From contig JAGQYE010000013.1 of assembly GCA_020436225.1 (NCBI GenBank), forward strand, positions 1-62,076: 62,076 nt of DNA, in the 5' to 3' direction. Below, one piece after another: positions 6,915-42,381 of the stretch. The notes below the pieces were generated by a model, which did not search any database, was not told the DNA's origin, and worked only from the letters and a program-made list of their open reading frames with translations. This stretch comes from Bacteroidota bacterium. GTDB taxonomy: Bacteria > Bacteroidota > Bacteroidia > Chitinophagales > JADIYW01. Position 1 is the first letter of the stretch. Each line of letters starts with the position of its first letter. The translations under genes were made by a program, and so were the position numbers.

Positions 6915-6946
6915 TTTGCACAAAAACAATCAATTACCTATCTTTG
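6915..6946 (+). promoter_or_regulatory. Consensus promoter of the tRNA-like RNA
   Basis: TTTG (6915-6918), 20 bases, then TATCTTTG (6939-6946), a full match to the Bacteroidota -33/-7 consensus. Predicted start is about 6951-6953, some 45 bases before the tRNA-like fold. The leader contains a small hairpin ACAAC-TCC-GTTGT (6969-6981). Confidence 0.8.
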
Positions 6947-6996
6947 TGTCAACAAGTTCTTTAATAAAACAACTCCGTTGTCAAAATACTTAAAAT

Positions 6997-7162
6997 TGTA
7001 AGGTGATGAAATTGGCAGCCATGCCCTCTTGTCTCGGGGGTGAGGAGTTCGAAACAAAGACAGCGTATAGCCGGTTAAGCCTTATATGGCCGACAGGGAT
7101 TGACCACCAAAACTTGCACTGTTCCTAATCGCCTTTTGGAGGTTCGAGTCCTTCTCTTACAG
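6997..7162 (+). ncRNA. tRNA-like RNA with a 97-nt variable region
   Basis: The ends fold as a tRNA. The acceptor stem is UGUAAGG (6997-7003) with UCUUACA (7155-7161), 7 pairs including one G-U. U8 is present, and the D-arm AUG/CAU has a class II (Leu-like) loop AAAUUGGCAGC with the GG pair. The anticodon stem is CCCUC/GGGGG with loop UUGUCUC (7029-7035), formally anticodon GUC. The T-arm is GGAGG/CCUUC with a perfect UUCGAGU loop (7143-7149). Position 21 is C instead of A, position 37 is a pyrimidine, and CCA is not encoded. Between anticodon stem and T-arm lie 97 nt (7041-7137), far more than the 10-25 of class II tRNAs. Within it GGUUAA/UUGACC (7073-7078 with 7100-7105) and GACAG/CUGUU (7059-7063 with 7119-7123) could pair. 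A consensus promoter and terminator flank it. Not tmRNA; the anticodon stem is closed, so not an anticodon-loop intron. Confidence 0.75.
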
Positions 7163-7167
7163 CAACA

Positions 7168-7201
7168 AAATCCGAATCAAATATGGTTCGGATTTTTTTA
7201 T
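7168..7201 (+). terminator. Rho-independent terminator of the tRNA-like RNA
   Basis: Perfect 9-bp stem AAATCCGAA / TTCGGATTT (7168-7176 with 7187-7195), 10-nt loop, then a T run. It begins only six bases after the tRNA-like fold, which supports a dedicated short transcript. Confidence 0.92.
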
Positions 7202-18190: not shown

Positions 18191-18306
18191 TTTGGGCGTT
18201 GCGCCGCCACGCCACAAATCTACGCTGGCGCCGCGCTATCCGCTGCAATGTTTTTTCCTGACGAAAATCAAAGCACAAAAAACATTTCCGCTTCTATCGC
18301 TAACGC
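18191..18306. repeat. GC-rich intergenic palindromic element
   Basis: In otherwise AT-rich DNA this patch reads TTTGGGCGTTGCGCCGCC, then GGCGCCGCGCTATCCGCTGC, then an inverted pair AATGTTTTTT / AAAAAACATT (18247-18256 with 18277-18286), and ends TTCCGCTTCTATCGCTAACG. The order GGGCGTT ... GCTATCCGCTGCAA ... inverted T/A arms ... CCGCTTCTAT ... CTAACGC matches a dispersed intergenic element that I recall from many Bacteroidota; this is memory, not a search. The rest of the gap to 18429 is a leader with TATCTTTA and repeated AAATCTG words. Confidence 0.55.
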
Positions 18307-18429
18307 AAAGTCAACGTACGTTAACCATCAAAAAATTTATAAAAATAGTTGCTATAACAACTAAATTGTTTATCTTTAATTGTGTAAATCATAAATCTGT
18401 ATTCATAAATCTGAAATCTTAATTCCATC

Positions 18430-40485: not shown

Positions 40486-42381
40486 TTATTCCATATACTT
40501 TCTCCAAAAATTCTGGAAGACAATCAGCGCCCAAATTTGTGCGTGTACGTCGCCCGGATTATTGGAAAATAATTGTTGTTTGATATTTCTTATCACATCT
40601 ACATTAAATATATTTTGCTGTTGGATGTAATCATCGCTCAACCAATCATTCAAAATTTTATCTTTTAAATCGGTTCTGAACCATTGTAACAACGGCACTT
40701 CAAAACCTTTTTTTGGTCGGTTGTACAATTCTTTCGGCAAATAATTTCTAAACGCATCTTGTACAATTTTCTTTTTCATCTTGGCATTTATCTTGCTCGA
40801 AACCGGCAACGAAAATGCAAATTCAACCACGCGATAATCCAAAAATGGTGTTCGCACTTCTAAGGAATTGCGCATACTCATTCTATCTACTTTCGTCAGC
40901 ATATCATACGGCAAAACCATATTTACGTCTGCTAATAAATTATCATTTAATGTTCCATCATAAGAAACCAAAGAAGCATATTGCTGTCTTGTTTTGATGA
41001 TTTCTGTTAAAGCTGTGTCCACTTTATCGCCTAATAAATTTTCGACAAACTGCATATCGTTGATGCAACACCAGCGCCACCAACGCTCGTTCGGTGGTAA
41101 TTCCATTCCGTTGGCAAAGCGTTCTAATTGCCTGATTTTATTGCTGATTTTTCCACTGCGCGATTTCGGCAAAGCCGACCAAAGTGGTTGTAAAAGTTGA
41201 ATGATATTGGTTTTCCAATTATTGCTTCGTGCTTGCCATTCGCCGTAATGTTTATTATAGCCGGCAAATAATTCATCACCGGCATCGCCGGACAAAGCTA
41301 CTGTAACATGTTGCCGCGTATATTTCGATAAAATATTTACTAATAATGCCGATGAATCAGCGAAAGGTTCGTCGGTATAATCCAACAGCTCATGTAAACT
41401 CTGAAATAAATCTTCATTTTTTAATTTAAAAATGGTGTGATTGGTTTTAAAATGCTGGGCAACCAAATTGGCATATGGTGTTTCATCAAAAAAATCATTG
41501 CCTTCAAATCCGATAGAAAAAGTGTTTAGATTTTTGGTATGTCGAGCTGCCATAGCCGTAATCACAGACGAGTCGATACCACCACTTAAAAACGCGCCTA
41601 AAGGTACATCGGCGATTAAACGCAAGCGCACTGCATCGTCGAGCAAATCAACTAATTTTTTTTGTTGTTCTTCATAAGTTAATGGATTTTGCTCTGCCGT
41701 TGTTGCATGGTATGGAATGTTATACCACTTCTGAATTTTTATTTCTGCTGGACGAATGAAAACTTGATATCCGGGTTCTAAGCGTTGTATATTTTTAAAA
41801 ATGGAATTTTTGCCCGGAATATAATTGAGTTGAAAATACAAACTCGCTGCACTCCAATTGATTTCTTTTTGAATGGGAAATTGAAGCAGTGCTTTCAACT
41901 CCGAAGCAAAGAAAAGATAATCTTCGTCTTGGTAATAATATAAAGGTTTGATGCCAAATCTATCGCAAGCAATGAAGAGTGAATTATCTAATTTGTCGTA
42001 AATCGCAAAAGCAAAAAAACCATTGAGTTTATGTAAAAAATCTTTTCCAAAAACGATATAACTATTGAGCAAAACTTCGGTATCGGAATGTGTTTTAAAA
42101 ACGATGCCTTTTTGTTCTAATTCTTGTTTGAGAGTTTGAAAATTAAAAATTTCTCCATTAAAAATAATGGCATATCGTTCGGTGCTATCAAAAAGAGGTT
42201 GGTGTGCCGCTTCTGAAGTGTCGATGATTGATAAGCGCGCATGCACTAAGGCTGCATTGTTTATGGAAATAGAATTTTGAAAATCGGGACCTCGTTTATT
42301 AAGAGAAACGGCTGCATTTTGCAACCATTGTTGTTCTATTGTTTTATTTTTAAAAGTGTACGCACCGGCAATCCCACACAT
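40486..42381 (-). CDS. asnB: Asparagine synthase, glutamine-hydrolysing (AsnB type)
   Basis: 631 residues: N-terminal class II glutaminase with Cys2 (MCGIAGAYTF) and NGEIFNFQTLKQEL, then the ATP-pyrophosphatase domain with LSGGIDSS (GAFLSGGIDSSVITAMAA) and YDMLTKVDRMSM. In Bacteroidota polysaccharide loci such AsnB enzymes often amidate uronic acids in place of aspartate, and its place next to two glycan genes makes that possible here. The C-terminal region is full length. Confidence 0.93.
   Translation of the reverse strand: MCGIAGAYTFKNKTIEQQWLQNAAVSLNKRGPDFQNSISINNAALVHARLSIIDTSEAAHQPLFDSTERYAIIFNGEIFNFQTLKQELEQKGIVFKTHSDTEVLLNSYIVFGKDFLHKLNGFFAFAIYDKLDNSLFIACDRFGIKPLYYYQDEDYLFFASELKALLQFPIQKEINWSAASLYFQLNYIPGKNSIFKNIQRLEPGYQVFIRPAEIKIQKWYNIPYHATTAEQNPLTYEEQQKKLVDLLDDAVRLRLIADVPLGAFLSGGIDSSVITAMAARHTKNLNTFSIGFEGNDFFDETPYANLVAQHFKTNHTIFKLKNEDLFQSLHELLDYTDEPFADSSALLVNILSKYTRQHVTVALSGDAGDELFAGYNKHYGEWQARSNNWKTNIIQLLQPLWSALPKSRSGKISNKIRQLERFANGMELPPNERWWRWCCINDMQFVENLLGDKVDTALTEIIKTRQQYASLVSYDGTLNDNLLADVNMVLPYDMLTKVDRMSMRNSLEVRTPFLDYRVVEFAFSLPVSSKINAKMKKKIVQDAFRNYLPKELYNRPKKGFEVPLLQWFRTDLKDKILNDWLSDDYIQQQNIFNVDVIRNIKQQLFSNNPGDVHAQIWALIVFQNFWRKYME

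Follow-up and report, generated by a model that had tools for sequence, protein, structure and literature searches.

A tRNA-like RNA family of Bacteroidota that co-occurs with GatCAB: a candidate non-decoding tRNA for asparagine formation

The non-proteinogenic tRNA-Gly of staphylococci is chargeable and withdrawn from translation, and its amino acid goes to the cell wall. In Deinococcus, Thermus, and Bdellovibrio, asparagine is formed with tRNA-Asn, a non-discriminating AspRS (ND-AspRS), and GatCAB, and GlnRS and AsnRS are present alongside (PMC4206432). Many bacteria keep GatCAB despite having both AsnRS and GlnRS; a published survey counts Bacteroidetes in this group and explains the retention by asparagine formation on tRNA-Asn (PMC4206432). 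Synthetase determinants are also found outside tRNAs: the tRNA-like leaders of E. coli thrS and of the yeast AspRS mRNA mimic synthetase anticodon determinants (PMC9976931).

We analyzed a window of 62,076 nucleotides from a Bacteroidota genome, meaning the whole stretch of DNA under study, in which a sequence-only reading had proposed a dedicated tRNA-like non-coding RNA, perhaps charged by a tRNA enzyme. Comparison across genomes supports this proposal and makes it more specific: the RNA carries AspRS determinants together with the base pair recognized by GatCAB.

Anatomy of the RNA and its family

The RNA gene lies on the forward strand. A promoter of the Bacteroidota type, read directly from the window, spans positions 6915 to 6946 (TTTGC at 6915-6919 and TATCTTTG at 6939-6946), and the leader contains a boxA-like antitermination sequence, AAGTTCTTTAA, at 6954-6964. 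The mature body, placed by the covariance model and by covariation, runs from U1 to G73-C74 (6997-7163). Its acceptor stem pairs UGUAAGG (6997-7003), with U1-A72 and G2-C71, with UCUUACA (7155-7161), followed by G73 at 7162 and C74 at 7163. The D-arm (7006-7022) is of the Leu type, with an AUG/CAU stem and a loop that holds A14 A15 and G18 G19. The anticodon arm (7024-7040; stem 7024-7028/7036-7040) presents the loop UUGUCUC (7029-7035), with the anticodon GUC at 7031-7033, U37, and C38. The variable region (7041-7137) contains U44 and an outer helix, GAGG/CCUU, and ends in UU with U48; within it lie a conserved internal loop and then an inner helix with side hairpins, including the UUGACCAC module. 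The T-arm (7138-7154) has the loop UUCGAGU, and an intrinsic terminator, a hairpin followed by a T run, stands at 7167-7199. On re-reading, the promoter, the tRNA-fold elements, and the terminator were all where the sequence-only reading had put them, and the variable region measured exactly the 97 nt that it had given. Its remark that CCA is not encoded needs dividing: C74 is encoded in 188 of 188 copies, and the statement stands for the remainder of CCA.

The flanking signals recur in the family. Promoter-like TTGC/TAnnTTTG pairs precede many homologs, and similar terminators stand after many of them. GTTCTT occurs within 100 nt upstream of 24 of 82 copies, against a mean of 2.9 (maximum, 9) in a Markov control and 2 on the reverse strand; we infer that this leader sequence has a boxA-like antitermination role.

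ARAGORN reports 0 tRNA or tmRNA genes in the window, and Rfam gives no match at the RNA locus, either at the gathering score or at permissive thresholds, with no tRNA match there even at an E value of 10. The only Rfam match in the window is a Flavo-1 RNA on the reverse strand (18225-18311; 49.4 bits, above the gathering score). On the same strand, at 180-695, a 171-aa frame resembles by eye a REP-associated tyrosine transposase. The folding energy of the single window sequence is unremarkable (z, 0.78), so the case for the RNA is carried by comparative data.

Homologs were found by DNA search in 15 of 41 genomes, the window's own genome counted. When 16 copies were aligned with MAFFT, blind to structure, 24 of 24 pairs of the cloverleaf and variable arm were standard in every sequence, and 12 pairs showed double-sided changes; slid controls of the same alignment were 50 to 64% paired. 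A set of 82 copies (80 distinct rows) had 99.5% of its cells paired, and double-sided changes appeared in 234 cells, compared with 65 in shuffles. Covariation is present in all helices, with 99.5 to 100% of their cells paired. Covariance-model scores are two-humped: true members, 109 to 200 nt long, lie between about 87 and 147 bits, and ordinary class II tRNAs, with lengths of 83 to 87 nt, reach at most about 62 bits on the same model. The window RNA scores 139.6 bits, the window copy itself being part of the model, and the next-best matches in its genome are tRNA-Leu genes at 41 to 49 bits.

The RNA is present in many families of the order to which the window belongs and in several more from other orders of the same class, and one family of another Bacteroidota class also carries it; the distribution spans Chitinophagales, genera of the Cytophagales/Sphingobacteriales type, and that other class. 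Among the matches listed from a pattern scan of named genomes are Chitinophaga, Terrimonas, Ferruginibacter, Neolewinella, Pedobacter, Mucilaginibacter, Algoriphagus, Cyclobacterium, Belliella, Dyadobacter, Spirosoma, and Fulvivirga. A planctomycetal match of the scan was rejected as a chance pattern match, the covariance model giving no match to it. The RNA genes are frequently in tandem, in arrays of 2 to 5 copies. Judged by conserved sequence and paired changes, the window RNA belongs to a genuine RNA family of Bacteroidota that had not been catalogued before. The covariance search that the sequence-only reading had suggested thus finds the homologous fold in related genomes, with compensatory changes in the outer helix of the variable arm. 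A match to an already described RNA class, which it had named as refuting, is absent from Rfam, and no earlier description was found in the open-access published papers searched.

The cloverleaf is complete, with the tertiary marks U8, A14, G18G19, A15-U48, and the T-loop. The D-stem AUG/CAU covaries (ACG/CGU, GUG/CAC, and UUG/CAA), and the Leu-like D-arm, A15-U48, and a variable-helix junction of 1 nt on the 5' side and 2 nt on the 3' side give the RNA a body of the tRNA-Leu type. To judge from these marks, it resembles a Leu-like body of class II that bears AspRS determinants and the GatCAB pair, and the conflict between an Asp anticodon and a Leu-type D-arm, pointed out from the window alone, is real and conserved among the copies.

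The variable arm also bears out the suggestion that it is novel: its 4-bp outer helix covaries (GAGG/CCUC, GAAG/CUUC, GGGG/CCCC, and GGUG/CACC), its internal loop has conserved strands (GRAAYAAA-type or GGAUAAA-like opposite CUAAYCG or CUAACYG-like), and its inner helix varies in length. The inner segment is self-closing in 150 of 159 copies, compared with 31% of shuffled sequences. The UUGACCAC hairpin module occurs in 58 of 188 copies, in several families and in long variable arms such as that of the window (7046-7131). The spliced insert offered as a further possibility is not supported, since the insert varies freely from about 30 to 115 nt, is absent from one relative, and has neither a ribozyme or intron hallmark nor conserved splice-like ends. 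That relative (genome G110, L272, 838-914, reverse strand) is 77 nt long and has U1-A72, G73, and the loop CUAUCUC, with A34; it lacks a variable arm and may be an ancestral or a reduced form.

Identity positions and decoding positions

Strong aspartate-identity determinants are G73, G34, U35, C36, and C38 (PMC9976931). The U1-A72 pair of tRNA-Asn is the one recognized by bacterial GatCAB, whereas tRNA-Asp has G1-C72 (PMC4206432). Both sets are kept in the family: U35, C36, and C38 are each present in 188 of 188 copies and G34 in 186, G73-C74 and G2-C71 are invariant (188/188), and U1-A72 is found in 187 of 188.

The decoding marks have a different fate. U33 is absent from 30 of the 188 copies, although the window copy has it, and position 37 is U in 167, C in 14, G in 7, and never A, so the pyrimidine noted there in the window is shared by 181 copies. 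Ordinary tRNAs of the same genome keep U33 and a purine at 37 in nearly all cases, and the genome has an ordinary tRNA-Asp (loop CUGUCAC, G1) and a tRNA-Asn. With the aspartate determinants and U1-A72 kept and the decoding marks lost, the RNA joins AspRS and GatCAB features on a decoding-poor body. Loss of U33 and of purine 37 is understandable, since asparagine carried by an RNA with an Asp anticodon would otherwise be inserted at aspartate codons. Two features of bacterial tRNA-Asp are not kept: position 10 is A, G, or U instead of G10, and U1-A72 replaces G1-C72. Both G1-C72 and G10 are tied to aspartylation in E. coli, and their absence counts against charging by AspRS.

Co-occurrence with GatCAB and genomic neighborhood

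Phyletic patterns were compared in 149 genomes of the window's order, which are not independent samples. All 149 have AsnRS and therefore do not need GatCAB to make Asn-tRNA(Asn); 99 have GlnRS, so that glutamine does not require GatCAB either and the enzyme looks redundant there. gatB is found in 90 of the 91 RNA-bearing genomes of the order. Of the 99 genomes with GlnRS, 75 have gatB, and 70 of these carry the RNA, whereas none (0) of the 24 that lack gatB does (P = 2e-18, the genomes not being independent). Collapsed to genera, this set has 49 with both, 16 with neither, 5 with gatB only, and 0 with the RNA only, and the product of the one-sided P values within families is about 1e-12. The 50 genomes without GlnRS show no association (20 with both, 1 with the RNA only, 27 with gatB only, and 2 with neither), as expected, because GatCAB serves a different purpose in them. 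Outside the order but within the same class, 15 genomes have both, 0 the RNA only, 4 gatB only, and 38 neither (P = 1.8e-10).

Five genomes with gatB and GlnRS were scored as lacking the RNA. One (G395) has, next to AsnC, a copy truncated by the end of the contig, another (G024) may be a contig break too, as its contig stops just upstream of asnC, and a third (G012) has only a gatB fragment. When the RNA-less genomes were searched for a diverged copy beside AsnC, only G395 had one.

Asparagine synthetases were also compared. AsnA occurs in 9 of the 149 genomes; three RNA-bearing genomes (G004, G005, and G200) carry it. AsnB was counted by NF006949 in place of TIGR01536, a misleading count of asparagine synthetase in that exopolysaccharide-type paralogs exceed its cut-off. 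At this curated level AsnB is found in 4 of 149 genomes, none of which has the RNA or gatB (P = 9e-4); three of the four pass the cut-off, and one (G429) falls marginally under it. Sixteen RNA-bearing genomes have neither AsnA nor any AsnB-like protein, and most RNA-bearing genomes also have AsnB-like proteins of uncertain role (TIGR01536). The synthetase distribution favors asparagine formation, although the AsnB-like paralogs and the three AsnA genomes blur the test. In the window, 41878-42381 on the reverse strand is part of a 633-aa frame for an AsnB-like amidotransferase of the exopolysaccharide type, which scores 162 bits with the AsnB model, far below the cut-off.

One protein cluster recurs beside the RNA gene: a regulator of about 155 aa at 29 of 46 loci, including loci of the other class, always upstream and divergent, about 100 to 240 bp from the RNA gene. 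At 75 further named loci with room for it, the regulator is in the same position in 48, and 1 more has an overlapping frame. Its best family is AsnC (161 to 166 bits; next family, 68 to 79 bits), which sets aside the other Lrp-type regulators, and its best structure match is 2cg4, E. coli AsnC. It does not reach the NCBIfam AsnC equivalog cut-off of 227 bits. By these matches the neighbor is AsnC-like and not the E. coli equivalog. In E. coli, AsnC is asparagine responsive and binds asparagine, and its gene is divergent from asnA; here, the position of asnA opposite the AsnC-like gene is occupied by the RNA gene. In the window genome, the AsnC ortholog sits elsewhere, away from the RNA gene. 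A phage or defense element was considered and rejected, the RNA gene having no conserved mobile or toxin neighbor.

Two single loci are recorded here. In genome G431 (L104, 7379-7536), aspS follows on the same strand 160 bp after the end of the RNA gene, with a terminator between them. In genome G401 (C1; L276), the RNA gene (1520132-1520303) is about 4.5 kb from gatB (1524841-1526268), which could be chance.

A candidate route to asparagine, its rivals, and known systems

The enzyme marks kept, the decoding marks lost, and the near-obligate co-occurrence with GatCAB together suggest an Asp-to-Asn carrier. From these patterns we consider it probable that the RNA is a dedicated non-decoding tRNA, charged with aspartate by AspRS, amidated to asparagine by GatCAB, and placed under AsnC control. 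Its anatomy suggests that a dedicated promoter would drive its transcription and that the transcript would be processed as tRNAs are. AspRS would then load aspartate through the conserved G34, U35, C36, C38, and G73, and GatCAB, recognizing U1-A72, would convert aspartate to asparagine on the RNA. The charged RNA would not read aspartate codons, given that neither U33 nor purine 37 is kept and that the variable arm is so large, and hence no asparagine would be misinserted. Asparagine might then be freed by hydrolysis or passed to an acceptor, or the charging state might be read as a signal. The divergent AsnC-type regulator, presumably asparagine sensing, would control the gene, as AsnC controls asnA in E. 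coli.

Two further points count against this explanation: no release step or acceptor enzyme for RNA-bound asparagine was found, and the same function could be filled by a non-discriminating AspRS together with tRNA-Asn. A more far-reaching form, to which we give slightly less than even weight, holds that the RNA is a tRNA-like carrier for amino acid biosynthesis only, loaded by AspRS and amidated by GatCAB, that yields free asparagine and replaces AsnA and AsnB across much of Bacteroidota; it would also account for why these bacteria keep GatCAB despite AsnRS and GlnRS.

Alternatively, the RNA could be a sensor or regulator, charged with aspartate that is perhaps amidated, whose charging state, or whose binding to AspRS, GatCAB, or AsnC, reports aspartate, asparagine, or nitrogen status rather than providing asparagine in bulk. 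The constant linkage to the AsnC-type regulator, the structured variable arm with its conserved internal loop and UUGACCAC module, and the RNA gene that adjoins aspS all agree with such a role. We nonetheless regard it as unlikely: tandem arrays and a boxA-like leader suggest an abundant, stable RNA, E. coli AsnC already binds asparagine by itself, and true AsnB is confined to RNA-less genomes. A donor of asparagine (or aspartate) to a cell-wall peptide, lipid, or peptide would likewise combine a non-decoding loop with intact synthetase determinants, yet no conserved transferase lies beside the gene, where AsnC is the only broadly conserved neighbor cluster, and we think this role distinctly improbable. 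Still less credit goes to a decoy or scaffold that binds AspRS and GatCAB uncharged, as a transamidosome scaffold or a sponge; retention of the determinants of both enzymes suits it, but an uncharged binder would have no obvious need for the invariance of G73-C74 and of the full acceptor end. An ordinary or suppressor tRNA reading GAC/GAU, as the formal anticodon GUC would allow, is hardly credible in a genome with a normal tRNA-Asp (loop CUGUCAC) and for an RNA with neither U33 nor purine 37 conserved and a variable region of 97 nt instead of up to about 25.

If the non-decoding tRNA for asparagine formation is real, a tRNA has left the genetic code to serve as a biosynthetic cofactor; were release of free asparagine shown, it would represent a new functional class among RNAs. 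A separate RNA that tracks GatCAB almost perfectly also makes the question of GatCAB retention directly testable with one gene.

The RNA shares something with each of several known systems. As in tmRNA, the RNA is tRNA-like, non-decoding, and presumably stable, but it has no tag frame or tmRNA layout and keeps a full anticodon arm; the judgment of the sequence-only reading that tmRNA does not fit agrees with the negative ARAGORN and Rfam results. Unlike the tRNA-like synthetase leaders, it has a gene to itself, complete with promoter and terminator, and is not part of an mRNA. Compared with the staphylococcal tRNA-Gly, the amino acid would be another one, the structure differs, and no transferase was found. 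The Leu-type D-arm, A15-U48, and the variable-arm junction are those of tRNA-Leu, whereas G73, the GUC anticodon, a usually far longer variable region, and the conserved internal loop set it apart from class II tRNAs. The closest parallel is the tRNA-Asn route, with which it would share charging by AspRS followed by amidation by GatCAB and does share U1-A72 and the presence of GlnRS and AsnRS alongside GatCAB. In that route, tRNA-Asn with anticodon GUU is both carrier and decoder, and a non-discriminating AspRS is required; here, the carrier would be a separate RNA with an Asp anticodon and lost decoding marks. The chemistry, each of the enzymes, and asparagine formation on tRNA-Asn are already known; a separate RNA for it appears neither in Rfam nor in the papers found.
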